Source: an uncultured Alphaproteobacteria bacterium
GTDB taxonomy: Bacteria; Pseudomonadota; Alphaproteobacteria; HIMB59; GCA-002718135
DNA length: 47,728 nucleotides
Assembly (NCBI GenBank): GCA_902635455.1
Contig: CACPNW010000009.1
Coordinates: forward strand, 1 to 47,728
Direction of reading: 5' to 3'
Positions 9,873 through 24,652 of the stretch are shown here, in pieces; position 1 is the stretch's first letter, and the number at the start of each line of letters is the position of its first letter. Position numbers and translations under genes: made by a program. The notes under the pieces are model-generated. The model did no database searches. It had not been told where the DNA came from and saw nothing but the letters and a program-made list of their open reading frames with translations.

Positions 9873-11153
9873 TTACTGGTTATAAGCTTGTAATCCAAGC
9901 TCAGATTTATCAATACCTGCTTTTTGAACATGATCTGGTACTCGTAACCAGCCAGCCATTTTCATAATTAAAGAAATAACATAGCCAGGTATAAATCCAG
10001 TTAATGCCATTGTAATGATACCAACAATTTGACCCATTAAGTTTGAAGGTGGAATATCTCCTGCAGCTGGAAAACCAGAAGCAAAAAGACCTACACACAA
10101 CATACCTAAAATACCACATACACCATGAATTGATACTGCGCCTACACAGTCATCAATCTTAAATGTATTATGAAGCCAATTATTAGCTGGAATAATTACA
10201 ATACCCGCAATAGTTCCAAGGATAAAAGCAAATCCTGGGTACCAAATATCAAGACCACCTGCACATATAAATATACCTGCAAGACCGCCTGACATCATCC
10301 AAAAAGGATTTCCTTTACTATACCAGAAAGCTCCTATCATACCGCCTGCAAGACCCATTAAGGTATTGAAAGCAAAAGAAGATAATGTAGCTGGTGCACC
10401 ATAAATGTTTACCCAACCACCAAAATCAGATCCTGCCCAAATTAAACAAGCGCCTAAGAATCCAAAGAATCCTACAATCAGAGTTAATAAGCCTACAAAA
10501 GATAATACTAAGCTATGACCTTCTAAATCATTTGCCGAGCCATCATCATTATATTTACCAACTCTTGGTCCAAGATTTAACAACACACCAAATGCAAACA
10601 GTCCAGCAACAGTGTGAACACAGCCCGCAGCTGCCACATCATGAAAACCAAAGCCAGTTACTAGCCATCCATCAGGATGCCATCCCCAAGAAGCTGCTAA
10701 AATCCAAACCACAGAACCTAATATAACTGCTAAAAATACAAAAGCACTAATTCTAATTCTTTCAATTACTGCTCCAGAAAAAATCGATGCTGTTGTACAT
10801 GCAAATAATGTAAATGCTGCCCAGAATACGCCTGTTGCTTGGTCACTTAACATAGGTCCCATTGAAACATTCCATGGAGCTCCGTATCCTTCTAAATCAA
10901 TAGGAACAAATCCTCCTGGAAATGCTAAATAGATCCACCATCCAAATAACCAGAAAGTTGGTATCATAAATGCAAATGCTAATAAATTTTTAACACCTGA
11001 AGATACAGCGTTTTTCATTCTTGTAGCGCCCACTTCATACATTAAGAAACCAACGTGAATAATAATCATTAGTCCTGTACACCACCAATAGTAAGCTTCC
11101 ATGCCCACATTTGCTTGCGTAGTGACAAAAACATTTAATTCTTCCAACGTCAT
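9873..11153 (-). CDS. amt: ammonium transporter Amt
   Basis: Amt/Rh-family channel of the inner membrane for ammonium uptake, 426 residues with about eleven membrane helices. The paired pore histidines are recognisable in GCVHTVAGLF and in SIHGVCGILG, and the family segment WILAASWGWHPDGWL is present. No cleaved signal peptide is evident at the start (MTLEELNVFVTTQANVGMEA). The start is fixed by an excellent Shine-Dalgarno sequence (TAAGGAGG) five bases upstream. No glnK/PII gene lies next to it; instead a 57-residue membrane protein follows in the same transcript and a glutamine-riboswitch-like leader precedes it, so control by cellular glutamine is the likely regulation. Confidence 0.96.
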   Translation of the reverse strand: MTLEELNVFVTTQANVGMEAYYWWCTGLMIIIHVGFLMYEVGATRMKNAVSSGVKNLLAFAFMIPTFWLFGWWIYLAFPGGFVPIDLEGYGAPWNVSMGPMLSDQATGVFWAAFTLFACTTASIFSGAVIERIRISAFVFLAVILGSVVWILAASWGWHPDGWLVTGFGFHDVAAAGCVHTVAGLFAFGVLLNLGPRVGKYNDDGSANDLEGHSLVLSFVGLLTLIVGFFGFLGACLIWAGSDFGGWVNIYGAPATLSSFAFNTLMGLAGGMIGAFWYSKGNPFWMMSGGLAGIFICAGGLDIWYPGFAFILGTIAGIVIIPANNWLHNTFKIDDCVGAVSIHGVCGILGMLCVGLFASGFPAAGDIPPSNLMGQIVGIITMALTGFIPGYVISLIMKMAGWLRVPDHVQKAGIDKSELGLQAYNQ

Positions 11154-11187
11154 TTTGCCTCCTTACGAGTTCAATTTATAATAATAA

Positions 11188-11288
11188 TTCATCTCATAGA
11201 GGTTGAAAGAGTTTATTGGGAAAACAGACAAACCGCGTTCCTTCAGCATTTAAACCTACTTCCGTCTCACCCATAAATGAGATGAACG
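11188..11288 (-). promoter_or_regulatory. glutamine riboswitch-like (glnA RNA) leader of amt
   Basis: On the minus strand the leader contains, in order, CGTTC, a hairpin TCTCA ... TGAGA, the block GACGGAAGTAGG, then GCTGAAGGAACGCG. CGTTC pairs with GAACG (P1) and TCTCA with TGAGA (P2). This order and the GGAAGTAGG / GAAGGAACGC blocks are what I recall of the glnA-type glutamine aptamer; P3 between the blocks is weak. A downstream arm ATGAGATGAA (11188-11197) is perfectly complementary to TTCATCTCAT inside P1/P2 (11277-11286), and TTTATGGG (11270-11277) can also pair with CCCAATAAA (11212-11220). The aptamer and this long stem exclude one another, as expected for an expression platform. The Amt ribosome binding site lies 20 bases further on, suggesting translational control. 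Confidence 0.72.
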
Positions 11289-11419
11289 ATCATATTTAAT
11301 AGGACTTATGATGTGTTTTTTACTTAGTTTCAACTGTTAAATCTGGAATCTTATCCTGATGTGGATATGTTTTTTGGCAGATTTCTTGTATTTTTTAGAT
11401 TCATCAAGCTCAAAAAAGC

Positions 11420-12289
11420 TCAAGATTTTTTTCTTAACTCAGAAAATGTATATGTCATAATTATTAATATAATTAATATTCCACCAATGATTGTTTTTAA
11501 AGAAGGAGACTCTGCTATTACAAGCCAAACCCACAGAGGTCCTAATATTGTTTCTAATACAAAAAAAATCTCAACTTCATAAGCGGGAATATATCTTGGA
11601 GCTAATGTCATAAAAGAAAGTGCTATACATAAGCAAGCACCCATTGCTATTATCAAATAAAGCTCTTTAGAATTAATATCTAATATATCATTAAATGAAT
11701 GAATGAATGCAAAAGGTATCATAAGTGTAAACAGTTTAGATATTAAAAGTGAAGGAAGAAAATTAACTAATTTTGCATATCGTATTACAACGGCACCGCC
11801 ACCAACCAAAATGGCAGTAAGCAAACCAAAAATGTCACCAAATATTCTATTGCCTTGATAGGAATCATAAAATATAAAAAAAACACAAAGAAAACAAGCT
11901 ATTATTGTTGCCCACATTTTTTTACTTGGATGTTCATTTAAAAATAATGAACTAAGAATTGCAGTAGCAAAGGGTGTTAATGCTATCATAATTAGAGTAT
12001 TCGCAACATTTGTATTTTGTATAGATATTACAAAAGTGGTGTTACCTAAGGCAATTAAAACTGCATAAAACAAGCCAGCCATTCCATTAATAAAAAAAGC
12101 CTGAAAGAAATTTTTTTTATAATAAAAAATTAATGCTATAAATAAAAAAATTAATGGAACCAAACCTCTATAAAAAAGCAACTCCCACGACTGTAAATTA
12201 ATTAATCGTATAAATAATGAATCAGGCGTGATAACTAATACCCCAATCAAAGATAGAGTGATGCCTTTTTGTTTATCCGATAAATTCAT
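11420..12289 (-). CDS. EamA/DMT-family transporter
   Basis: Inner-membrane protein of 289 residues with ten hydrophobic segments arranged as two EamA repeats, typical of the drug/metabolite transporter superfamily. The start MNLSDKQKGITLSLIGVLVITPDSLF and the mid-protein segment ALGNTTFVISIQNTNVANTL are family-like. Substrate is unknown; members export or import amino acids, nucleosides or other small metabolites. It follows a second DMT gene by 11 bases in the same direction, so the two are one operon and may form a heterodimer. The operon is divergent from gmaS. Confidence 0.85.
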   Translation of the reverse strand: MNLSDKQKGITLSLIGVLVITPDSLFIRLINLQSWELLFYRGLVPLIFLFIALIFYYKKNFFQAFFINGMAGLFYAVLIALGNTTFVISIQNTNVANTLIMIALTPFATAILSSLFLNEHPSKKMWATIIACFLCVFFIFYDSYQGNRIFGDIFGLLTAILVGGGAVVIRYAKLVNFLPSLLISKLFTLMIPFAFIHSFNDILDINSKELYLIIAMGACLCIALSFMTLAPRYIPAYEVEIFFVLETILGPLWVWLVIAESPSLKTIIGGILIILIIMTYTFSELRKKS

Positions 12290-13266: not shown

Positions 13267-14622
13267 ATGGCGATTAATTTAGCAGAGATTGCAAAAAAGA
13301 AAAAAATAAAATATTTTTTAATTAGCTATGTTGATTTTTTTGGTGTTCTTCGATCAAAGCTAGTTCCTTCTCAATCAATAAAAGAAATGCAAAAAGAAGG
13401 TGCTGGATTTGCTGGCTTTTCTACTTATTTAGATATGTCTCCATCTGATCCTGATATGGCTGCCATTCCTGATCCTAATAGTTTTATTCAACTGCCTTGG
13501 CAAATGGATGTTGCTTGGTTAGCAGCCGATTTATGGATGGAAGGCAAGCCAGTTGCTGCTTCACCTAGAGTGATGCTACGTAATGAAATTGATAAACTTG
13601 CAAAAAAAAATATGTATTTAAAAAGTGGAGTGGAGTGTGAGTATTTTTTAATTACACCCGCTGGTGACTCAATTGCAGACAAAAACGATATTGCTGATAA
13701 GCCTTGTTATGATCAGTCAGCTTTAATGCGCCAATATGAATTAATTCGTGCAATTTGTGACTCAATGATTCATCTTGGATGGGGGCCCTATCAAAATGAT
13801 CATGAAGATGCAAATGGTCAGTTTGAAATGAACTGGGACTTTGCTGATTGTTTGCAAACTGCTGATCGTCATGTTTTTTTTAAATTCATGGTAAGGACTC
13901 TAGCTGAAAAAGCTGGCTTAAGAGCAACTTTTATGCCCAAGCCATTTATTAATAAAACAGGAAATGGTTGTCATGCTCACCTATCAATTTGGAATAAAAA
14001 AGGCAAAAATTTATTTTTAGATAAAAAAGATAAATTAGGCTTATCCAAAACTGCATACAATTTCATGGGTGGAATAATGAATTCAGCTGAAGCTTTAACA
14101 GCTTGGTTTAATCCAACAATAAATAGTTATAAAAGAATTAATGCTCCAGTAACAGCTTCTGGTGCCACTTGGTCGCCTAACACGATAACATATTCTGGAA
14201 ATAATAGAACGCATATGATTAGGGTTCCAGGTCCAGGAAGATTTGAACTTAGATTAATGGATGGTGCAACCAATCCTTATTTATTACAAGCTGGAATACT
14301 TGCAGCAGGTATTGATGGTATAAACAAGAAAAGAAAACCAGGTAAGCCAATTAATTTAAATATGTATGAAGAAGCACATAAATTAAAAGGAGCAAAAAAA
14401 TTACCATTAAACCTTAATCAAGCTCTAAATCATCTTGATAAAAGTAAGGTGCTTAAAGGTGCTTTTGGTAAAGATGTAATTAACTCATATATAACTTTAA
14501 AAAATAGAGAAATTAAAAAATATAACTCTTCAAAAGATAATAAGATTGGCTTTAAAAAATCAAAATCAAATAAATCTAATATAATAACTCAATGGGAAAG
14601 AGATAATACTTTAGATTGTTAA
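13267..14622 (+). CDS. gmaS: gamma-glutamylmethylamide synthetase
   Basis: Joins methylamine to glutamate with ATP, the first step of the N-methylglutamate pathway. The protein (451 residues) is GlnA-like and carries the segments I know from GmaS: YFLISYVDFFGVLRSKLVP near the start, GWGPYQNDHEDANGQFEMNW in the catalytic core, GNGCHAHLSIW, SGATWSPNTITYSGNNRTHM, and the C-terminal WERDNTLDC. An unusual Lys/Ser-rich stretch (about residues 415-438, GFKKSKSNKSN) sits between the last helix and that C-terminal end, where other GmaS proteins I recall are shorter. Good AGGAGG ribosome binding site. Followed by an uncharacterised gene and then by a convergent GlxBCD-like module that fits the next step. 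Confidence 0.88.
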   Translation: MAINLAEIAKKKKIKYFLISYVDFFGVLRSKLVPSQSIKEMQKEGAGFAGFSTYLDMSPSDPDMAAIPDPNSFIQLPWQMDVAWLAADLWMEGKPVAASPRVMLRNEIDKLAKKNMYLKSGVECEYFLITPAGDSIADKNDIADKPCYDQSALMRQYELIRAICDSMIHLGWGPYQNDHEDANGQFEMNWDFADCLQTADRHVFFKFMVRTLAEKAGLRATFMPKPFINKTGNGCHAHLSIWNKKGKNLFLDKKDKLGLSKTAYNFMGGIMNSAEALTAWFNPTINSYKRINAPVTASGATWSPNTITYSGNNRTHMIRVPGPGRFELRLMDGATNPYLLQAGILAAGIDGINKKRKPGKPINLNMYEEAHKLKGAKKLPLNLNQALNHLDKSKVLKGAFGKDVINSYITLKNREIKKYNSSKDNKIGFKKSKSNKSNIITQWERDNTLDC

Positions 14623-14637
14623 ATTTATAAATTTAAA

Positions 14638-15183
14638 ATGACAAAGATTGGTTGGAGTAATTTTGTTGTTTGGCAATGCAGTATTCGACAACGTAATTTC
14701 AGAATGTTTAGTGGAAAACCATCTGAAGGAACAGTAGCTAATTTATTAGAAATTAAATCAAATAAAGAGTTATGCAGTATAAGATCAGTACTACTTGAAA
14801 AAAATTGTATTAATACAGCTAAAATGTTTGAATTTATGATTAAACAAACAAATGAACCTGAAATTAGATTTGATAAAATTGTAAAACTTCTTTCTTCAGA
14901 ATATTATAACACTCCTAGTAACTTCGACGGTTCTTTTGCTGCTACATTTGATAATAATTCAGAATTATATAAAAAAATAATTAAGAAAAAAAAATTAATT
15001 ACACAATTCTTTGAAAGAGATACTGGTTTTAATTTCCCTGTTAATATTACTAAATTAAAAAGAAATGATGCAAAATGGAAATATACCTTTTTTCATAACT
15101 TTTTCTTTAATCCTAATTTAAATGAAAACATTGAAATACTTCACTTTAGCCCAATAAAAGCTGCAATAAAAAAAATTACATAA
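14638..15183 (+). CDS. uncharacterised protein downstream of gmaS
   Basis: Not assigned. The 181-residue soluble protein is basic and has the N-terminal pattern WSNFVVWQCSIRQRNFRMFSG, with no membrane segment, signal peptide or known catalytic motif that I can see. It starts 16 bases after gmaS in the same direction, so it is very likely co-transcribed and connected to methylamine assimilation. I have the impression that short proteins with a WQC-x-IRQ start occur beside gmaS in other alphaproteobacteria, but cannot verify this here. Confidence 0.65.
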   Translation: MTKIGWSNFVVWQCSIRQRNFRMFSGKPSEGTVANLLEIKSNKELCSIRSVLLEKNCINTAKMFEFMIKQTNEPEIRFDKIVKLLSSEYYNTPSNFDGSFAATFDNNSELYKKIIKKKKLITQFFERDTGFNFPVNITKLKRNDAKWKYTFFHNFFFNPNLNENIEILHFSPIKAAIKKIT

Positions 15184-15208
15184 ACTTAAATAATAAACAA
15201 TTATAAGA

Positions 15209-16540
15209 TTATTTATCTAAGCCAGGTATCCAATTCGTTCCAGCTAAAGGGACTCTGGCCATAGCAGCAGATTCAACAGTTAAAGCACAAAGATCCTCAG
15301 GTTCTAAATTATGCAAATTATTTTTACCGCAAGCCCTTGCTATTGTTTGCGCTTCTAAAGTCATCACTTTTAAATAATTAGACAATTTTTTACCTGCTTT
15401 AACAGGATCTAATCTTCTCATTAATTTTTTATCTTGAGTAGATATGCCTGCTGGATCATTTCCTTCATGCCAATCATCATATGCTCCAGATACTGTTCCA
15501 AGTTTTTTATATTCTTTTTCCCATTTAGGATCATTATCGCCAATTGCAATCATTGCTGCTGAACCAATGGATACCGCATCAGCACCTAAAGCAAGCGCTT
15601 TTGATACATCCGCTCCATTTCTAATACCTCCAGAAATAATTAGTTGCACTTTGCGATGCATATTTAGATCTTGAAGAGCATCTACTGCAGGACGTATGCA
15701 AGCTAATGTCGGTTGTCCAACATTTTCAATAAAAACTTCTTGTGTTGCTGCTGTTCCTCCCTGCATGCCATCAAGTACTACTACATCAGCCCCTGCTTTT
15801 ATAGCCAAAGCTGTGTCATAGTAAGGTCTGGCTCCTGCAATTTTAACAAAAATTGGAACTTTCCATTGTGTTATTTCTCTTAATTCAGTTATTTTTATAG
15901 CTAGATCATCAGGTCCAGTCCAATCAGGATGCCTACATGCTGATCTTTGATCAATGCCTTTAGGAAGATCTCTCATTTCTGCTACACGATCACTAATTTT
16001 TTGACCTAATAACATACCTCCTCCACCAGGTTTTGCTCCTTGACCAATAACAACTTCAATAGCATCAGCTTTTCTTAAATCATCAGGATTCATTCCATAT
16101 CTAGAAGGAAGAAGTTGATACACAAGAGTTTTTGATTGACCTCTCTCTTCTTTAGTCATTCCACCATCTCCAGTTGTAGTTGAGGTTCCAGCTATAGATG
16201 CCCCCCTACCTAAAGCTTCTTTAGCTGAGCCAGATAAAGCTCCGAAACTCATACCTGCAATTGTTATTGGAATATCAAGTTCTAAAGGTTTTTTTGCAAA
16301 ACGTGTTCCTAACACAACATTGGTTAAACATTTTTCCCTGTATCCTTCTAGTGGATATCGAGACATAGAAGCTCCTAAAAAAAGAAGATCATCAAAATGA
16401 GGTAGTTTTCTTTTTGAGCCACCACCACGAATATCATAAATACCAGTTGCAGCTGCTCTTCTTATTTCTGAATTTGTATAATCATCAAAAGTCCAAGATT
16501 TACGAGGAGTTGTAAATAGATTTTTTTTCTTTTTTGCCAT
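15209..16540 (-). CDS. glxD: glutamate synthase-like FMN subunit (GlxD/MgsC type), lacks Fe-S cysteines
   Basis: Homologue of the FMN/2-oxoglutarate domain of glutamate synthase; with GlxB and GlxC it would form a three-subunit N-methylglutamate-synthase-like enzyme. Core segments are intact: SFGALSGSAKEALGRGA (about 99-114), SRYGMNPDDLRKADAIEVVIGQGAKPG (146-172), and the FMN-phosphate region IISGGIRNGADVSKALALGADAV (301-323). Where the paralogue at 18638-19987 has Cys356, Cys359 and Cys364, this protein has Tyr354, Trp357 and Asp362, so the iron-sulphur cluster site is gone. The N-terminus is Lys-rich (MAKKKKN). It begins one base after the GlxC stop, the last gene of its module, and converges with the gmaS operon. 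Confidence 0.85.
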   Translation of the reverse strand: MAKKKKNLFTTPRKSWTFDDYTNSEIRRAAATGIYDIRGGGSKRKLPHFDDLLFLGASMSRYPLEGYREKCLTNVVLGTRFAKKPLELDIPITIAGMSFGALSGSAKEALGRGASIAGTSTTTGDGGMTKEERGQSKTLVYQLLPSRYGMNPDDLRKADAIEVVIGQGAKPGGGGMLLGQKISDRVAEMRDLPKGIDQRSACRHPDWTGPDDLAIKITELREITQWKVPIFVKIAGARPYYDTALAIKAGADVVVLDGMQGGTAATQEVFIENVGQPTLACIRPAVDALQDLNMHRKVQLIISGGIRNGADVSKALALGADAVSIGSAAMIAIGDNDPKWEKEYKKLGTVSGAYDDWHEGNDPAGISTQDKKLMRRLDPVKAGKKLSNYLKVMTLEAQTIARACGKNNLHNLEPEDLCALTVESAAMARVPLAGTNWIPGLDK

Positions 16541-16541
16541 A

Positions 16542-17237
16542 TTAGTAATCAGAAATATTATCTATATTAAAATTATATAGTTTTCTCTCTGATCCAAATT
16601 TTTTAAAATGTTTTACTTTAAGATTTTTTATCTTTCCAGTTTTTAATAAATCTTCAATTTTTTTTATATCTTTTTTATGCATTTTTTTTTCAACACAATC
16701 AACTCCTAAACTTTTGGGCTTACCTGCTAGATAAATAATAGTTTCATAAATGCTATCGCCAAGTGCTTCTCCAGCATCACCACAAATAAGCATGGTTCCT
16801 GATTGAGCCATGAAACCAGACATATGACCTACAGACCCTTTAACGATTATATCGATACCTTTCATTGAAATACCACAACGAGAGCTAGCATCACCATCTA
16901 TAATAATTGTTCCCCCATGTGCAGTAGCGCCAGCAGACTGTGAAGCATTACCTTTAACATGGATTAAGCCAGACATCATATTTTCACCTAAACCAGTTCC
17001 AGCATTACCGTTAACAGTAATATGTGCTTTTTGATTCATACCTCCACAATAATATCCTACATGTCCATTTATTTTTACGGATATGTTTTCAGTTAATCCA
17101 GCGCATATAGCATGATGACCACTTGGATTTTTTACAGTCAAATCTCTTTTGTTATTTTTATAACTAATGTTTTGAAGGTAATTATTTATTTTTCTTAAAG
17201 TGTTTTTTTTAAAATCTAAATTTTCTATTTTCCCCAT
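16542..17237 (-). CDS. glxC: glutamate synthase-like GXGXG subunit (GlxC/MgsB type)
   Basis: Corresponds to the right-handed beta-helix (GXGXG) domain of glutamate synthase. The repeating glycine-rich turns are easy to see from about residue 55 to 190 (CGGMNQKAHITVNGNAG, AGATAHGGTIIIDGDASS, MSGFMAQSGTMLICGDAG). It is shorter (231 residues) than the paralogue in the other module, mainly at the N-terminus. Its start lies inside the end of glxB, with a 13-base overlap, and glxD follows after one base, so translation is tightly coupled. Role: structural link between the amidotransferase and FMN subunits. Confidence 0.85.
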   Translation of the reverse strand: MGKIENLDFKKNTLRKINNYLQNISYKNNKRDLTVKNPSGHHAICAGLTENISVKINGHVGYYCGGMNQKAHITVNGNAGTGLGENMMSGLIHVKGNASQSAGATAHGGTIIIDGDASSRCGISMKGIDIIVKGSVGHMSGFMAQSGTMLICGDAGEALGDSIYETIIYLAGKPKSLGVDCVEKKMHKKDIKKIEDLLKTGKIKNLKVKHFKKFGSERKLYNFNIDNISDY

Positions 17238-18112
17238 GTGTATACAACTCCAGGTTTTGGTTCGTAAATATTAGATTTATTTACATATGGAAGATGCGCC
17301 ATAGCTTGAAATTCAGAAGCCACAGCAACATAATCATTATTTTCTGCAATAACAGCCGGCTTGCAAGCTATCTCATCTCTTAAAACAGCAAATCCTTTAT
17401 TAGTACCTGCAATAAAAGTGTAAAAACCATCTAAATCTGAAAGACATTCTGTTAAAGTTTTTTTCATGGATTTATTTTCTGATAATTTTTGGCTTATATA
17501 ACCTGCTGCTACTTCAGTATCATTTAAAGAATCAAAATTTTTACCCTGTTTGATTAATTGTCTTCGTAGATTATTGTGATTAGATAAAGACCCATTATGA
17601 ACTAAACATTCATCTTCTCCGGTCGAATAAGGATGCGATCCATCAACTGTTATTGCGCTTTCAGTTGCCATTCTAGTATGACCAATTGCATGTGAGCCTG
17701 CAAATTTTTCTAACTTAAATTTTTTTACAATTTCTTTTGGGTTTCCGACTTGTTTAAAAATCTCAATTGACCTTCCATAACCTACTAATGAAATTTCGCT
17801 AAAATTTCTTTGAATATATGAAATAAATTTTTTAGGTGTAGCTGAAGTATAAACAACTACATGATCTGAAATACTTTTTATTATAATATCTTTAAAATTT
17901 TTTTTAATATCTTTTTCAAATCCACTTGATAATGCTTTATTTAAGCAAAGAGAATATTTGTAATATTTTTTTATCTCTTTGTTATTGTATATTGCAAAGC
18001 CTGCAGAGTCTGGTCCTCTTGATGACATATTATCAAGCATACCGCTAAGATAAAACCCTAGTTTATTATACAGTTTTTTCTTTTTTAAATATAAACCTAC
18101 TATTCCACACAT
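17225..18112 (-). CDS. glxB: class II glutamine amidotransferase subunit (GlxB/MgsA type)
   Basis: N-terminal-nucleophile amidotransferase subunit expected to release ammonia or methylamine from the glutamine-like donor (gamma-glutamylmethylamide in the N-methylglutamate pathway). Cys2 after the initiator Met is the nucleophile (MCGIVGLY); other conserved parts are MSSRGPDSAGFAIY, GHTRMATESAITVDGSHPYS and LVHNGSLSNHNNLRR. Length 295. First gene of the three-gene module nearest gmaS; the roughly 100 very AT-rich bases upstream presumably hold its promoter. Sequence is clearly diverged from the second GlxB copy, so this is an old duplication or two separate acquisitions. Confidence 0.88.
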   Translation of the reverse strand: MCGIVGLYLKKKKLYNKLGFYLSGMLDNMSSRGPDSAGFAIYNNKEIKKYYKYSLCLNKALSSGFEKDIKKNFKDIIIKSISDHVVVYTSATPKKFISYIQRNFSEISLVGYGRSIEIFKQVGNPKEIVKKFKLEKFAGSHAIGHTRMATESAITVDGSHPYSTGEDECLVHNGSLSNHNNLRRQLIKQGKNFDSLNDTEVAAGYISQKLSENKSMKKTLTECLSDLDGFYTFIAGTNKGFAVLRDEIACKPAVIAENNDYVAVASEFQAMAHLPYVNKSNIYEPKPGVVYTWGK

Positions 18113-18211
18113 AAAATTATAAATTTTAATAATTCAATACATAAATATATATAATATTACAAAAGCAAGAGCTAAATTTAAAAATTTTTATTATTAAATT
18201 ATACAAAAAAA

Positions 18212-18628
18212 TTAATTAAATTTTTTATATGCTTTCTTTAATACTACAAGAGGATGCTTTGAGGACATTTGAAATTTAATTAATAATTCTCTTGCTATCA
18301 TATCTCGATCCTGCTGATCCTTAGGTAGTTTTAATTTTGGTGGAGTTGTAACCCATCCATTAATATTTCTATCAAATACTGCTGGCTTACCATTTTCATA
18401 GCCCATATGAACGTCTTCAAGCCAATTCAAATCATCCCAACCCATGTGCTCAATATATTTTTTTAAAAAAGGAGTTAATCGATTATAATCAGGTAATAAG
18501 TTAACATCATAGCGATAGCCAATATGTTGACCTATCATTTTTTCTCTAGCAGTTTTAATACCATGATCTTTTTTATTAGAAGATTTTGCTTTCTTTTTTA
18601 TACTTTTTTTATTTTTTTTCTTAACCAT
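18212..18628 (-). CDS. uncharacterised Lys-rich protein in the second Glx operon
   Basis: Not recognised. The first 25 of 138 residues are very rich in lysine (MVKKKNKKSIKKKAKSSNKK), followed by a compact, aromatic-rich soluble domain with IGQHIGYRYDVNLLPDYNRL and HMGWDDLNWLEDVHMGYENG. It starts 9 bases after the glxD stop in the same direction, so it is the last gene of the GlnT-GlxBCD operon. The Lys-rich start resembles those of both GlxD proteins (MAKKKKN, MAKKNKKN), possibly reflecting a shared interaction or targeting role. No catalytic motif is visible. Confidence 0.7.
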   Translation of the reverse strand: MVKKKNKKSIKKKAKSSNKKDHGIKTAREKMIGQHIGYRYDVNLLPDYNRLTPFLKKYIEHMGWDDLNWLEDVHMGYENGKPAVFDRNINGWVTTPPKLKLPKDQQDRDMIARELLIKFQMSSKHPLVVLKKAYKKFN

Positions 18629-18637
18629 ATTTATTTC

Positions 18638-19987
18638 CTAAATTGAATGAAAGTTATCAACGCCTACAGTATGATCAGTACCAGCAAGTGGTACTTTAGC
18701 AAGTGCTGAAGCCTCCATAGTCAATGCAGCCAAATCTTCTGGCTCTAATGAATGTATATTTGTTTTACCACATGCTCTAGCTAAGAGTTGAGCTTCTAGA
18801 GTCATAGCATGTAAATAATTATAAACTCTTAATGCTGCATCATCAGGATTTAATCTTTTTCTTAATTCAGGATCTTGTGTTGCAACACCGACAGGGCATC
18901 TTCCTGTATGACAATGATAACAATAACCAGCCTCAACACCTAATTCTTTTTCAAAATCAGCCTCAGGTATATCTTTATTACAATTAAGTGCCACTAATGC
19001 ACCTGTACCTACAGAAATACAATCAGCGCCTAGTGCTAAAGCTTTCGCCATATCCGCTCCATCTCTAAGGCCACCTGCAAATATTAAAGTAACGTCTCCT
19101 GATTTTCCGACATCATCCAATGCTCTTCTTGCTTCTCTTACTGCTGCTATACCAGGAATACCTGTATTAGCTGCAGCAATATGAGGACCTGCACCAGTTG
19201 AACCCTCCATACAATCTAAGTAAATTGAATCTGGATCACATTTAGCTGCCATTCTAACATCATCATAAACTTTAGCAGCACCAAGTTTTAATTGGATTGG
19301 TACTTGGTTATCAGTTAATTCTCTAAGTTCCTGAACTTTTAATGCTAGATCATCCGGCCCTAACCAGTCAGGATGTCTGGCAGGTGATCTCTGATCAATA
19401 CCTGCGGGCAAAGATCTCATTTCAGCAACTTGGTCGGTAACTTTTTGTCCCATCAAGTGTCCGCCCATTCCAACTTTCTGACCTTGTCCTATAAATACTT
19501 CTATACCATCGGCTAATTGAGCATGATGTGGATTAAAACCATATCGAGATTGAATACATTGATAATACCACTTATGAGAATATCGTCTTTCATCAGGAAT
19601 CATGCCTCCTTCACCTGAGCATGTTGCACTTCCAGCCATGGTTGCTCCTCTTGCAAGTGCAGTTTTTGCTTCATAAGATAAAGCGCCGAAGCTCATTGAA
19701 GTTATGTAAACTGGAATATCTAACTCTATTGGGTTCTTACATCTTGGGCCAATTATAGTCTTTGTTTCACATTTCTCTCTATATCCTTCAATTACAAATC
19801 TAGTAAGAGTGCCGGGTAAGAATGTTAAATCATCCCAGTGAGGTATTTTTTTCATAAGAGCCATACCACGCATGCGGTATCTGCCTAATTGCGACTTAAT
19901 ATGAATATCGTTTATAACATCAGGAGTAAAAATTGAATTACGACCTAATAAACTTTTATCTGTATTTTTTTTATTTTTTTTAGCCAT
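18638..19987 (-). CDS. glxD: glutamate synthase-like FMN/Fe-S subunit (GlxD/MgsC type)
   Basis: FMN-binding subunit of the second glutamate-synthase-like module. The core motifs are SFGALSYEAKTALARGATMAG (about 99-119), RYGFNPHHAQLADGIEVFIG (148-167) and LIFAGGLRDGADMAKALALGADC (301-323). Unlike the copy at 15209-16540 it keeps three cysteines, Cys356, Cys359 and Cys364 (CYHCHTGRCPVGVATQ), in the place where glutamate synthases bind a 3Fe-4S cluster, though with C-x2-C-x4-C rather than the C-x5-C-x4-C spacing I recall for the family. Starts 13 bases after glxC. Likely catalyses the final reductive transfer onto 2-oxoglutarate, forming glutamate or an N-substituted glutamate. Confidence 0.88.
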   Translation of the reverse strand: MAKKNKKNTDKSLLGRNSIFTPDVINDIHIKSQLGRYRMRGMALMKKIPHWDDLTFLPGTLTRFVIEGYREKCETKTIIGPRCKNPIELDIPVYITSMSFGALSYEAKTALARGATMAGSATCSGEGGMIPDERRYSHKWYYQCIQSRYGFNPHHAQLADGIEVFIGQGQKVGMGGHLMGQKVTDQVAEMRSLPAGIDQRSPARHPDWLGPDDLALKVQELRELTDNQVPIQLKLGAAKVYDDVRMAAKCDPDSIYLDCMEGSTGAGPHIAAANTGIPGIAAVREARRALDDVGKSGDVTLIFAGGLRDGADMAKALALGADCISVGTGALVALNCNKDIPEADFEKELGVEAGYCYHCHTGRCPVGVATQDPELRKRLNPDDAALRVYNYLHAMTLEAQLLARACGKTNIHSLEPEDLAALTMEASALAKVPLAGTDHTVGVDNFHSI

Positions 19988-20000
19988 TATTCAATCCTTT

Positions 20001-20843
20001 CTAAATTGCACCTTTTCTCTCAGTTGGTTCTAAATTATCGTAATTCCATAATTTTTTTCCTGAAACAATTTTTGTAATTTTTTTATAATCAATTTTTTTA
20101 TCTATTTCGGAAACTTTTATTTTTCTTTTTAACCAAGCTATATCTAAATCAGTTAACTCCGCCTCAACGGCATCAGCACCCAATGATTTAATTGAACCTC
20201 CAACAAAAATAGTGCCATCATAAAGTGAGTCGCCTAAGTTAGGACCAACATCTCCCAAAATAACTATTCTTCCTCGTTGCATCATAAACCCTGTAAAAGC
20301 TCCAGCATCTCCACCGACTATAATAGTACCACCTTTCATATCAATACCTGATCTAGCACCAACACTTCCTTTACAAATTAAATCTCCACCTCTAATTGCC
20401 GCTCCGAAACAAGATCCTGCATTTTTTTCTACAACAACTTTACCAGCCATCATATTTTCAGCACAGGACCAACCAACTCTTCCAGATATTCTTACAACAG
20501 GCCCATCAACTGAACCTATTCCAAAATATCCAAGACTACCTTCTATAATTAAGTTAAGTTTGTTTAAAATCCCAACACCTATACTATGTTTTGAACCAGG
20601 ATTTTTTATGACAATTGTTCCATAACCTTTAGCCATTAGTTCATTTATTTTTCTATTGATATCAATACATTCTAAATTATTTGCATCAATTTCTGTTCTT
20701 TTATTAAAGTCAACTTTATGAGCATCGTGATAAAAGAAATTTTCACCCTCTTCTGGATTAAAAAAAACTTGTTGCGTACGACCTGTTAAAACCTCATCAT
20801 GTAAGCCCATTTCAGTAGATTTATGTTTTTTTATGCTTGCCAT
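20001..20843 (-). CDS. glxC: glutamate synthase-like GXGXG subunit (GlxC/MgsB type)
   Basis: GXGXG beta-helix subunit, 280 residues. Glycine turns run from about residue 105 to 230 (GYFGIGSVDGPVVRISGRVG, CFGAAIRGGDLICKGSVGAR, GGTIIVGGDAGAFTGF). It has a longer N-terminal extension than the paralogue (including VLTGRTQQVFFNPEEGENFF). Its ATG lies in the end of glxB with a 13-base overlap, exactly as in the other module, and glxD follows after 13 bases. Confidence 0.87.
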   Translation of the reverse strand: MASIKKHKSTEMGLHDEVLTGRTQQVFFNPEEGENFFYHDAHKVDFNKRTEIDANNLECIDINRKINELMAKGYGTIVIKNPGSKHSIGVGILNKLNLIIEGSLGYFGIGSVDGPVVRISGRVGWSCAENMMAGKVVVEKNAGSCFGAAIRGGDLICKGSVGARSGIDMKGGTIIVGGDAGAFTGFMMQRGRIVILGDVGPNLGDSLYDGTIFVGGSIKSLGADAVEAELTDLDIAWLKRKIKVSEIDKKIDYKKITKIVSGKKLWNYDNLEPTERKGAI

Positions 20844-21772
20844 ACTTTTACCTCTCCTTCATAAGGATCATAAGTATCAATCTCTTCAGGAAGAACTGTT
20901 CTTATCGCAACTTCCTCTGAAGCAAGTGCAACCAAATCATCACTTTCATACAATACCATTGGTTTAGCAGCCATATGATCTTTAGCCATGCCTAATTTAT
21001 CTTTCGTTGCTACTAAATATGTAAACACACCATCTAAGTCATCTAAAGATCCTCTCATAGCTTCTTCTAGGTCTATTCCATTACGTATTTTATCAGCAAG
21101 ATAAACTGCAATTAGTTCGGAATCGCATGTAGACATAAAACGCATACCTTTTTTTTCAAGAGCTCTACGATTATTCCAATAATTTGTTAATTGACCATTA
21201 TGCACAACAGAAACATCACTAAATGGATATGCCCAATAAGGATGGGCAGAACGAATATCAACACCAGACTCTGTTGCCATTCTAGTGTGCCCAATACCAT
21301 GAGTCCCAGCGAAATCACCAAGTTCATATTGGTCAGCAACAACTGAAGCATCACCTATATCTTTTATTAATTCAAGTGACTTGCCTAAAGATAAAATTTC
21401 AGTCATCTCAACAGATTCAATTTGTTTTGCTAAATCAAGCAAATCTCCATCATAAGAAATAACATATCTATAAGAATAAGGGGTAATTTGCTCTTCTTTA
21501 TGAAGTTCAGCACCTGAAATAGATATTTTTTCATTTACCTGACCCACTCTATCTTTATAGATACTCTCGTCTTCCATCACAGCAGAGCTACCTTCTTTTA
21601 CATTTTCACCAACCTTAAATCTTAAAATATAGTTATTAGATTCCCCTTCGCCATATAAAGCATAACCAGTTGAATCAGGTCCTCGATGTTTAAGAGATTG
21701 CAACATTTTTTGCATTTCTCCACCTACATTTGTAGACTTACCCTTGTGAATTATTCCAGCGATTCCGCACAT
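20831..21772 (-). CDS. glxB: class II glutamine amidotransferase subunit (GlxB/MgsA type)
   Basis: Glutaminase-type subunit of the second module, 313 residues. The Cys2 nucleophile (MCGIAGII), LKHRGPDSTGYALYG, GHGIGHTRMATESGVDIRSA and VVHNGQLTNYWNNRR are all present. It follows the GlnT-type ligase by 20 bases, with a clear AAAGGA ribosome binding site, so ligase and synthase are produced together. The natural donor is probably a gamma-glutamyl-amine made by that ligase; gamma-glutamylmethylamide, glutamine or another amide are all possible. Confidence 0.88.
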   Translation of the reverse strand: MCGIAGIIHKGKSTNVGGEMQKMLQSLKHRGPDSTGYALYGEGESNNYILRFKVGENVKEGSSAVMEDESIYKDRVGQVNEKISISGAELHKEEQITPYSYRYVISYDGDLLDLAKQIESVEMTEILSLGKSLELIKDIGDASVVADQYELGDFAGTHGIGHTRMATESGVDIRSAHPYWAYPFSDVSVVHNGQLTNYWNNRRALEKKGMRFMSTCDSELIAVYLADKIRNGIDLEEAMRGSLDDLDGVFTYLVATKDKLGMAKDHMAAKPMVLYESDDLVALASEEVAIRTVLPEEIDTYDPYEGEVKVWQA

Positions 21773-21792
21773 ATTAATTATCCTTTCTTAGA

Positions 21793-23265
21793 TTATGGCA
21801 ATACGTCCAAGTAAGTATCAACATCCCATTGCGTAACTGCAGAAAGGAATTTTTCCCACTCATCTTTCTTATAATGCATAAACACTCTAAGCATGTCTTC
21901 AGGTAATGCTGATTTAACAACTTTATCACTATCTAAACGATCAATAGCTTCTCCTAAAGTTAAAGGTAGTTTATCAACTGATTTTCCTTCTTTCATTGCA
22001 TCATAAATATTTTTTTTCTCTGGTTCCCCAGGATCCATTTTGTTATCTAATCCATCTTCAAAAGCTTTTAAAATACCTGCTCCCATTAGATATGGATTAT
22101 GAGAAGAATCTACTGATCTATATTCTACACGACCAGGAGCAGAAACACGAACACTACATGTTCTGTTTTGATATCCCCAATCCGCATATACTGGTGCCCA
22201 GAAACCTGTATCCCAAAGTCTTCTATAAGAATTGACTGTTGGAGAACCTAAGCAAGTTAATGCAGGTAGATGTTTTAATAAACCAGCAATACTATTTAAT
22301 CCAACTGGTCCAGGTTTTACTGGATCTAATTTTGGATCAGGCATAAACATATTTTCTCCCCCAGATATGTGAGTGAAAACTTGATCCATGCCTGGTAATG
22401 GATTGTTTCCTATAGGTGTAGATTTTAATTCTCCACCTTTCCAAAGTGAAACATTGGTATGGCATCCATTAGCTGAAACACCCATAAAAGGTTTGCTCAT
22501 AAAGCAGGCAATTAAATTAAATTCTCTTGCAACTTGTGCACAGATTTGTCGATAGGTTGTAAGTCTATCAGCATTTCTTAAAACATCATCATACATAAAA
22601 TTTAATTCTAGTTGACCCGGAGCATCTTCATGATCTCCTTGGATAACATCTAGTCCCATAGCACGACAATATTCAATTACTTTCATATATACAGGTCTTA
22701 GGGATTCAAATTGGTCAATATGATAACAATAAGGTCTTGAAAATCCATCTCCTGTTGGTTCTCCATTATCTTTCTTAGTCAACCACATCATTTCTGGCTC
22801 AGTACCAGCACGCATATTCATTCCAAATTTTTCTTGAAATTGATCTTGGAAAATTTTTAAATTACCTCGACAATCAGATGTTAAATGTCCACCAGGATTT
22901 TCATCTTCTTCTCTGTTTCTAAAACAAGTACACCAAACACGTGCAACTCTTTTATCCCAAGGCAGCTGAACAAAAGTATCTGGCTCTGGAATCCCAACAA
23001 GCTCAGATGATTCAGGTCCATATCCTATATATTCACCATGTCTATCAACAAACAAATTTGCAGTAGCTCCATAAACTAATTGAAACCCTTTTTCGGCTAA
23101 TGTTTCCCAGTGATCTGCTGGAACGCCTTTTCCAACAATTCTTCCTGTAACAGATACAAATTGATAATAGATATAAGTTATACCTAATTCTTCAATTTTT
23201 TTTCTTACATCTTTAACTAATTTATCCCTACCAGATTGATTTACAAAATTTTCTAAATCACTCAT
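21793..23265 (-). CDS. glnT: glutamine synthetase-like ligase, GlnT type
   Basis: GS-family ATP-dependent gamma-glutamyl ligase of 490 residues. The beta-grasp segment YYQFVSVTGRIVGKGVPADHW, the pocket segments GTEPEMMW and GDHEDAPGQLELNF, NGCHTNVSLW, and the late GRVEYRSVDSSHNPYLMGAG are recognisable. It is longer than GmaS and has its own insertions (an ISGGENMF... loop near residues 295-315). GlnT-GlxBCD operons are known in rhizobia and marine alphaproteobacteria; which amine this enzyme uses is unsettled. Second gene after the FAD oxidase in the same operon, 40 bases apart. Confidence 0.85.
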   Translation of the reverse strand: MSDLENFVNQSGRDKLVKDVRKKIEELGITYIYYQFVSVTGRIVGKGVPADHWETLAEKGFQLVYGATANLFVDRHGEYIGYGPESSELVGIPEPDTFVQLPWDKRVARVWCTCFRNREEDENPGGHLTSDCRGNLKIFQDQFQEKFGMNMRAGTEPEMMWLTKKDNGEPTGDGFSRPYCYHIDQFESLRPVYMKVIEYCRAMGLDVIQGDHEDAPGQLELNFMYDDVLRNADRLTTYRQICAQVAREFNLIACFMSKPFMGVSANGCHTNVSLWKGGELKSTPIGNNPLPGMDQVFTHISGGENMFMPDPKLDPVKPGPVGLNSIAGLLKHLPALTCLGSPTVNSYRRLWDTGFWAPVYADWGYQNRTCSVRVSAPGRVEYRSVDSSHNPYLMGAGILKAFEDGLDNKMDPGEPEKKNIYDAMKEGKSVDKLPLTLGEAIDRLDSDKVVKSALPEDMLRVFMHYKKDEWEKFLSAVTQWDVDTYLDVLP

Positions 23266-23305
23266 AACATCCCCCTATTTAATTATATTAACATTCAACA
23301 TCATA

Positions 23306-24652
23306 TTAACTCCATGGAAAAGGACTATTTGACGTTGGATGTAATTTTCCTTGTTCATACCTTGAAAAGCGGAAAGGTTCTAAAAGAGAAGATTTATCAC
23401 CTAAAACCTCTTCAGCAACTAATTTTCCTACCCCTAACATTTTATAACCATGATTGGAGTCAGCAATAATGTAAACATTTTCATTAAATTTATCAAAAAT
23501 TGGAAAAGAATCAGGAGTAAAGCAGCCTAAACCACCAGTAGCACCTTTTTTAAATAAATCAGATTTACCTTCAAAGCGTTTATGGCAAAAAGCTAATGCT
23601 GATGTCCACATGTGTGCGAATTCATCATCAATTATAAATTCATTTGATTTTGGACCATAAGGATCTACAGAAACTCCTTCACCTCCGGGTTCGCCAACTT
23701 TATAAGGCGAAGAGCCGCCTTGAATGCCATTGAAATGAAAGTCAGGTTTATAGTAAATTCCCCAAAGTTTATCAGTTATTAATGAATTATCTACATCAGA
23801 ATACAAAGGAGCATCAGTATCTACATGGACTACTGGTGGCATATTTCCTTCCTCAGTCTTTAAGAAATCTGGCTCAACTTTTAAAACTCCTTCAGTCAGA
23901 AACCAATAGTGCCACATAGGATAATCACTATGCATGTCTCCATTTTCGCCTTTAATGGCAATTTTGTTTGGTAATTCTAACATATCCCAAAAAGTTTTAA
24001 CCCATGGTCCAGCCCCAACAATAACTTGTTCACATTTAATTGTACCCTTATCCGTTTCAACACCTGTAACAGAATTAGAATTTGAGCCAAATTCAAAACC
24101 AGTAACAGTTGTGCCAGTTAAAATTCTAACACCCAAAGCTTCAGCCTTATCGGCTAAAGCATATATTGAAGAAGTATTATTTGCATAACCTCCTCTTTTT
24201 TCATGTAAAACGCTTGTAATTCCTTTTGCTTGCCAGTCACCAAACATTTTTTTCATATAATTTTCTGAATCTTTTTTTCCCTGAATAAAAACTGATTCAT
24301 ATCCAATATTTTTTTGCTGTTCATAAATTTCAGCAATGTCATTTTCCATGCATGCAGGACTAATTTGCATATATCCAACATCATGATAATGAAATTTTTT
24401 AGCATCACTTTCCCAAACCTCAACACACATTGCCATTAGCTCTCTCATTGCTGGCTGATAATAATTATTTCTAACAACTCCACATGCTATGCCACTTGCT
24501 CCTGCAGCAATTGCTTCTTTATCAATAACTACTATCTTAGATCCGTCACCTTTGCCTTTAGCTTTTAATCTTTCTGCTAAGTGCCAAGCAGTACTAAGTC
24601 CATGAATACCAGCTCCAATTATTACGTAGTCAACTTTTTCAGGAAAAGCCAT
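23306..24652 (-). CDS. FAD-dependent amine oxidoreductase (DAO/sarcosine-oxidase-beta-like)
   Basis: Flavoprotein of the D-amino-acid-oxidase fold, 448 residues. The FAD dinucleotide motif GAGIHG is at residues 13-18; GIACGVVRNNYY and the late DSFPIFD and ADSNHGYKMLGVGK segments match single-chain sarcosine/dimethylglycine-type dehydrogenases. It heads the GlnT-GlxBCD operon directly behind an operator-like palindrome. In methylamine pathways the equivalent step is oxidation of N-methylglutamate by the four-subunit MgdABCD; only this beta-like chain is present here, so it may act alone or oxidise a different N-methyl amino acid. No partner alpha, gamma or delta subunit is encoded in the window. 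Confidence 0.83.
   Translation of the reverse strand: MAFPEKVDYVIIGAGIHGLSTAWHLAERLKAKGKGDGSKIVVIDKEAIAAGASGIACGVVRNNYYQPAMRELMAMCVEVWESDAKKFHYHDVGYMQISPACMENDIAEIYEQQKNIGYESVFIQGKKDSENYMKKMFGDWQAKGITSVLHEKRGGYANNTSSIYALADKAEALGVRILTGTTVTGFEFGSNSNSVTGVETDKGTIKCEQVIVGAGPWVKTFWDMLELPNKIAIKGENGDMHSDYPMWHYWFLTEGVLKVEPDFLKTEEGNMPPVVHVDTDAPLYSDVDNSLITDKLWGIYYKPDFHFNGIQGGSSPYKVGEPGGEGVSVDPYGPKSNEFIIDDEFAHMWTSALAFCHKRFEGKSDLFKKGATGGLGCFTPDSFPIFDKFNENVYIIADSNHGYKMLGVGKLVAEEVLGDKSSLLEPFRFSRYEQGKLHPTSNSPFPWS

Follow-up and report, generated by a model that had tools for sequence, protein, structure and literature searches.

The window analysed here, a stretch of 47,728 nucleotides from an uncultured marine alphaproteobacterium, carries on its minus strand a gene for an ammonium transporter, amt (9873..11153; 426 aa), which was assigned from its match to PF00909 (E 6.1e-60) and which scores below the cut-off of all three NCBIfam Amt models that it matched. 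A Shine-Dalgarno sequence, AAGGAGG, lies at 11158..11164, and farther upstream the leader contains a glutamine riboswitch aptamer (11232..11290, minus strand). A cmscan search aligned 11290-11232 with the entire RF01739 model (the Rfam glutamine riboswitch; model positions 1-53 of 53) at 59.7 bits, where the gathering score is 35; the E-value, 8.9e-11, refers to a search of the complete window with 4227 families. Zero non-standard pairs were marked in the Rfam alignment, and the aptamer was recovered again in a whole-genome search of its own genome (E 5.0e-13). A preliminary description of this DNA had recognised a glnA-type element in front of an ammonium transporter, and both the identity and the position are borne out by these matches. 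It had also named the Downstream-peptide model as a second Rfam check; that model (Glutamine-II, RF01704), which is alike in its related ligand and its sequence blocks, reached only 15.4 bits in the window against a gathering score of 33.

The Rfam alignment places in the window aptamer a three-stem junction with the conserved blocks CGGAAGUA and GAAGGAACGC. P1 is formed by CGUUC (11284..11288) and GAACG (11236..11240) and lies about 80 bases from the amt start codon; the C directly after its 3' strand (11235) occupies, by our own mapping, the position of C60 in the "linchpin" G23-C60 pair, which is glutamine-induced (PMC11477058, sections available). P2 is a hairpin, UCUCA...UGAGA (11265..11282; strands 11278-11282 and 11265-11269). 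P3 (11245..11256; GGU/GCU) is weak, as had been claimed, with standard pairs, one G-C and two G-U. The CGUUC/GAACG stem, the UCUCA/UGAGA hairpin, and the GACGGAAGUAGG and GAAGGAACGCG blocks picked out earlier were all found on the minus strand, and the range then assigned, 11188-11288, overlaps the aptamer, whose proper extent is 11232-11290, and also takes in 11188-11197, a candidate anti-aptamer element downstream. There is one copy of RF01739 in the window, and the arrangement is that of a single aptamer rather than a tandem, in which a leader holds at least two. Since the whole leader is not unusually stable compared with shuffles (z -0.86; 32 of 200 shuffles equally good), fold energy alone is insufficient to find the aptamer; the evidence for it is the covariance model together with conservation among relatives.

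The genome to which the window belongs (1.14 Mb in 43 contigs, 68% complete) represents a genus that we infer to lie probably in AEGEAN-169, near HIMB59. The AEGEAN-169/HIMB59 group was formerly SAR11 subclade V (PMC10308909), and the main text of that paper on the AEGEAN-169 clade contains the words riboswitch, glutamine, and PII zero times each. The owner is an alphaproteobacterium, in agreement with the non-cyanobacterial host proposed at the outset; the term "SAR11-like" used for it is fair in the old sense, the order being apparently HIMB59/AEGEAN-169, but does not hold for SAR11 proper.

An amt of the window's type (identity at least 88%) was found in seven of the 46 own-genus genomes searched. 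The leader contains an intact aptamer in four of them (G000, which is the window's own genome, G001, G033, and G011), a decayed copy with a broken P1 in one (G035), and none in two (G020 and G034); the blocks on which the preliminary reading depended therefore recur in related amt leaders. Every strongly conserved position of the aptamer is intact in the window and in three relatives, and the flanks have diverged. Before the same amt in the sister family, no aptamer was found in any of 21 leaders. The neighbourhood of the gene differs with the presence of the aptamer: in the sister family, G020, and G034, amt has a type III glutamine synthetase-like gene as its neighbour, and in the five genomes that have the aptamer, intact or decayed, the neighbours are EamA transporter genes, so the aptamer arrived with, or after, relocation of the gene.

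Elsewhere in the window (13267-24652), glutamine synthetase-like genes at 13267 and 21793 flank two glutamate-synthase-type gene sets, which consist of glutamate-synthase-domain, GXGXG-type, and glutamine-amidotransferase genes; an FAD-dependent oxidoreductase gene is found at 23306, and the gene at 13267 scores above cut-off against TIGR03105, the type III model. This gene set resembles that of the N-methylglutamate (methylamine) pathway, and the window's amt may therefore carry methylammonium.

On the whole, we think it likely that the window contains a type 1 (glnA-type) aptamer that works in the amt leader as an OFF switch on translation, in an organism in which RNA has taken over from PII/GlnD. 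The established part of this reading consists of family membership, position, conservation in relatives, and genus-wide copies on nitrogen-assimilation genes. The OFF direction, which we hold with moderate confidence, suits the need for amt when glutamine is short. A possible means of switching lies in the putative anti-aptamer element AUGAGAUGAA (11188..11197, minus strand), a perfect 10-base complement of the aptamer 5' strand UUCAUCUCAU (11277-11286), to which sequence, minimum-energy fold, leader conservation, and a shuffle test all point. Its AUGAG is conserved in the other four genus leaders, and pairing between the aptamer 5' strand and the downstream leader goes beyond that of shuffles in three of the four intact leaders (18, 0, and 5 of 300 as strong), the fourth, that of G001, being matched by 55 of 300. 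Next to this element, within a pyrimidine-rich stretch, is a putative anti-Shine-Dalgarno sequence, CCUC (11199..11202); its pairing in the window leader is predicted when the aptamer is locked and is no better than in shuffles. Locking the aptamer lowers the predicted accessibility of the Shine-Dalgarno sequence in all four leaders (0.46 to 0.34, 0.20 to 0.14, 0.56 to 0.06, and 0.56 to 0.14), clearly beyond shuffles in two of them only (6 and 19 of 300) and not in the window leader (72 of 300 as good) or that of G001 (102 of 300). No terminator-like site was found in 11100-11450, and translational control is favoured for that reason; no promoter-like site was found on the minus strand either, which counts against the reading. 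At low glutamine, AUGAGAUGAA would pair with the aptamer 5' strand, so that the aptamer would be open and the Shine-Dalgarno sequence would tend to be free. At high glutamine, the ligand is predicted to hold P1 shut and release the downstream strand, and in that state the pyrimidine stretch could pair with the Shine-Dalgarno sequence, such that less transporter would be made.

The same RNA might work in the opposite direction, with glutamine freeing the ribosome-binding site, as in the ON switch of gifB in Synechocystis, which belongs to the same aptamer family, also serves nitrogen control, and is the one riboswitch of this type for which we found published control described. Both published types are described as activating in the available sections of a review (PMC6316151), and the start AUG is predicted to be more accessible with the aptamer locked in three of the four leaders. 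However, gifB encodes an inhibitor of glutamine synthetase (PMC6316151, same sections), so that its activation by glutamine fits a state of excess, whereas amt is an uptake gene that, like glnA, is wanted at glutamine scarcity, and the accessibility of the Shine-Dalgarno sequence goes down on locking in all four leaders. An ON switch before amt is on these grounds rather unlikely.

It is also conceivable that this copy of amt acquired a riboswitch that is now decaying and that regulation has been lost. The broken P1 of G035, the absence of the aptamer from two relatives, the restriction of this amt to seven of 46 genomes, and a score for the window copy of 59.7 bits, compared with up to 68 for the best in the genus, would all suit such a relic. 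That the strongly conserved aptamer positions are nonetheless intact in the window and three relatives, despite diverged flanks, argues against decay, and we regard loss of function as quite unlikely.

Glutamine riboswitches are a property of the genus as a whole: RF01739 was detected in 60 of 61 of its genomes versus 0 of 40 in the sister family. The window's own genome has three aptamers, namely the single one described above and a doublet before another amt on contig C12. This second contig weighs against the window being a contaminant or a mis-binned contig of cyanobacterial or phage DNA, an idea to which the abundance of the family in cyanobacteria and the state of the assembly (68% complete, 43 contigs) lend something, as does the occurrence of the aptamer pattern in at least 120 viral-contig stretches (L210-L329), phage copies of the glutamine riboswitch being on record (PMC9004378, available part). 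The amt, moreover, is 96% identical to genes with the same leader elsewhere in the genus, one of the genomes concerned (G011) matching a single-cell record, and contamination is accordingly very improbable. A chance match, for which nothing speaks except the weak P3, is negligible in view of the E-value of 8.9e-11 over the window and conservation in relatives.

The reach of the putative regulon is best seen in G260 (96% complete), whose eight aptamers form four doublets, located before two adjacent amt genes, between glnB and glnA, and before an operon encoding a circularly permuted ATP-grasp protein, with alpha-E and then transglutaminase genes downstream. Each own-genus doublet examined has a gap of 17-18 bases, measured from where one P1 ends to the following P1. 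At loci with the window-type amt there is always one aptamer, and two apparent singles elsewhere (L021 and L123) are doublets cut at the sequence edge. Downstream lies a conserved strand (AUARCUA..GCAUG) with which the doublet spacer (CAUGC..AGUUAU) pairs. All 38 distinct doublets of this spacing have the strand motif, and in 31 of these at most 3 of 300 shuffles pair equally well. This helix was tested by duplex energy because the full alignment misplaces the spacer of glnA leaders, and double-sided covariation in it is rare. The first C of the spacer adjoins P1 of the first aptamer and was equated, again by our own mapping, with C60 of the linchpin pair; glutamine binding could therefore compete with the spacer helix. 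The downstream partner of the spacer has a further option in the amt and glnA doublet leaders, pairing at the ribosome site, but the case for it is not convincing in every class; we rejected this pairing as a general rule, given that at most 15 of 300 shuffles did as well in 2/2 leaders of amt2, 4/12 of glnA, 2/6 of amt3, 0/4 of amt2b, and 0/20 of the ATP-grasp class. In folding predictions, locking both aptamers of the doublets produced no consistent change in the accessibility of the Shine-Dalgarno sequence (amt2, 0.11 to 0.10; glnA, 0.62 to 0.75; amt2b, 0.43 to 0.41; amt3, 0.24 to 0.26).

The gene for the circularly permuted ATP-grasp protein is a recurrent riboswitch target across unrelated groups (L052:3179-6374, L056:3987-6358, L184, L199, L368, and L391), and in L052 it is likewise followed by alpha-E and transglutaminase genes. 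Its link to the riboswitch suggests a nitrogen-related metabolite.

The usual proteobacterial glutamine sensor is GlnD, and the PII/GlnD cascade reports glutamine to glnA and amt. None of the 61 genus genomes gave a match to GlnD (TIGR01693), versus 35 of 40 in the sister family; neither this absence nor the genus-wide regulon had been foreseen in the preliminary description. A PII gene, always as a single copy, is present in 37 of 49 genus genomes; the sister family has PII in 31 of 32, usually as two copies; none was found in the incomplete genome of the window. The T-loop sequence TELYRGAEY is kept in all eight sister-family genes inspected, and the T-loop is altered in all 24 loci that belong to the genus or its look-alikes (L054:7940-8281 and relatives), with at least one genome counted twice: there it is one residue longer, reads (T/S)GG..., and is without ELYRGAEY, the tyrosine being retained. 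Neither sigma-54 nor the ntrC equivalog model scored above cut-off in any of the 101 genomes of the two families. Glutamine sensing in the genus may thus have shifted from the PII/GlnD protein cascade to RNA; the riboswitch would do an equal job to that cascade, which differs in being made of proteins and whose GlnD was not found in the genus.

To call the riboswitch mainly cyanobacterial, as had been done, understates its range. Of 19 selected records that were non-cyanobacterial or odd, 16 proved to contain RF01739, among them SAR86, SAR116, Porticoccaceae, and further proteobacterial records; the pattern matches in the other three, from Clostridia, Desulfovibrio, and Pseudohongiella, are not RF01739. 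Among 203 genomes of a SAR86-type order, RF01739 was above cut-off in 81 and GlnD in 113. Where the riboswitch precedes glnA, GlnD is present in 0 of 26 genomes; where it precedes gltB, in 0 of 7 (G510-512 and G514-517); and where it precedes the ATP-grasp gene, in 9 of 9; because the genomes are related and incomplete, the counts lack independence, and Fisher values calculated for the order do not amount to probabilities. Target names were assigned by eye, on the basis of how each protein begins, with Pfam confirming 5 of 26 glnA, 7 of 9 ATP-grasp, and 1 of 7 gltB assignments, and the counts leave out short or distant frames and contexts with an outer-membrane-type protein or a TonB receptor. 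Elsewhere, an alphaproteobacterial family (f10) has the riboswitch before the ATP-grasp gene and GlnD in 3 of 4 genomes, and a SAR116 record in which amt is the riboswitch target has no GlnD. The relation between GlnD and the riboswitch depends on the target gene.

Two simpler rules were considered and abandoned. A general exclusion of GlnD by the riboswitch is ruled out by the three genomes of family f10 and by the SAR86-type order overall, in which GlnD, fragments counted, coexists with the riboswitch in 37 of 80 genomes. That a riboswitch before gltB goes with retention of GlnD is true for L115 (and, with gltD, for L119) and is contradicted by the seven GlnD-less genomes. GlnD gave no match in 108 of the 385 genomes of the class sample, and nearly all of those are also without the riboswitch.

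Other arrangements were seen along the way. Two SAR86-type leaders (L136 and L165) contain three glutamine aptamers each, before an outer-membrane-type protein, and in L389:194-355, L126, and L399, also SAR86-type, doublets are followed about 20 bases on by very short basic frames (MTISKLHNLDK..., MTSYEEARSINRAVKKSLKKK...), the one tested having no Pfam match. In a Porticoccaceae record, a doublet (L163:7563-7742) stands ahead of a frame of 60 residues with weak similarity to DUF4278 (22.8 bits; cut-off 25.3), a domain of cyanobacterial riboswitch targets according to the part of PMC6316151 that is available.

Much of this has precedent. The glnA motif was linked to genes for amt, glutamine synthetase, glutamate synthase, and PII, with tandem copies, and was seen in marine metagenomes (PMC2864571, available sections). 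The window copy agrees with it in its full-length match, its P1, P2, and P3, and its conserved junction blocks, and differs in being single and in belonging to an alphaproteobacterial genus rather than a cyanobacterium. It differs from the gifB riboswitch in the proposed direction, OFF for an uptake gene as opposed to ON by glutamine. Tandem glutamine riboswitches number 157 doublets and 4 triplets in PMC9481103; the other copies of our genus are likewise doublets, unlike that of the window, and in the available text of that paper we found no description of a constant 17-18-base spacing or of pairing between spacer and downstream strand. The accessible portion of a review (PMC6316151) treats glutamine riboswitches as restricted to cyanobacteria and ascribes the links to amt, glutamine synthetase, and PII to unidentified environmental sequences. 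In a literature search outside which most subscription papers lay, no report was found of glutamine riboswitches in SAR86, of one joining the glutamine riboswitch, an ammonium transporter, and alphaproteobacteria, or of one tying these riboswitches to loss of GlnD. The family, the amt link, and tandem copies are thus already known, and the owner and context are new: the RNA itself adds a member to a known family, and its interest comes from its owner, its regulon, and the target-dependent absence of GlnD.

Whether an RNA sensor replaced GlnD in streamlined marine proteobacteria, in at least one alphaproteobacterial genus and at least one SAR86-type group, we judge to be about evenly balanced. 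On this reading, riboswitches stand directly on glnA and amt there, GlnD is gone, and the PII of the alphaproteobacterial genus has lost the usual T-loop sequence and so probably the old signalling role. The environmental riboswitches linked to amt, glutamine synthetase, and PII gain owners among uncultured heterotrophic proteobacteria, including an AEGEAN-169-like genus, SAR86, SAR116, and others. They also suggest, in a form open to testing, how ocean bacteria with small genomes that lack GlnD and sigma-54 perceive their nitrogen status, and they provide an example of a riboswitch that may have supplanted a protein signalling cascade.
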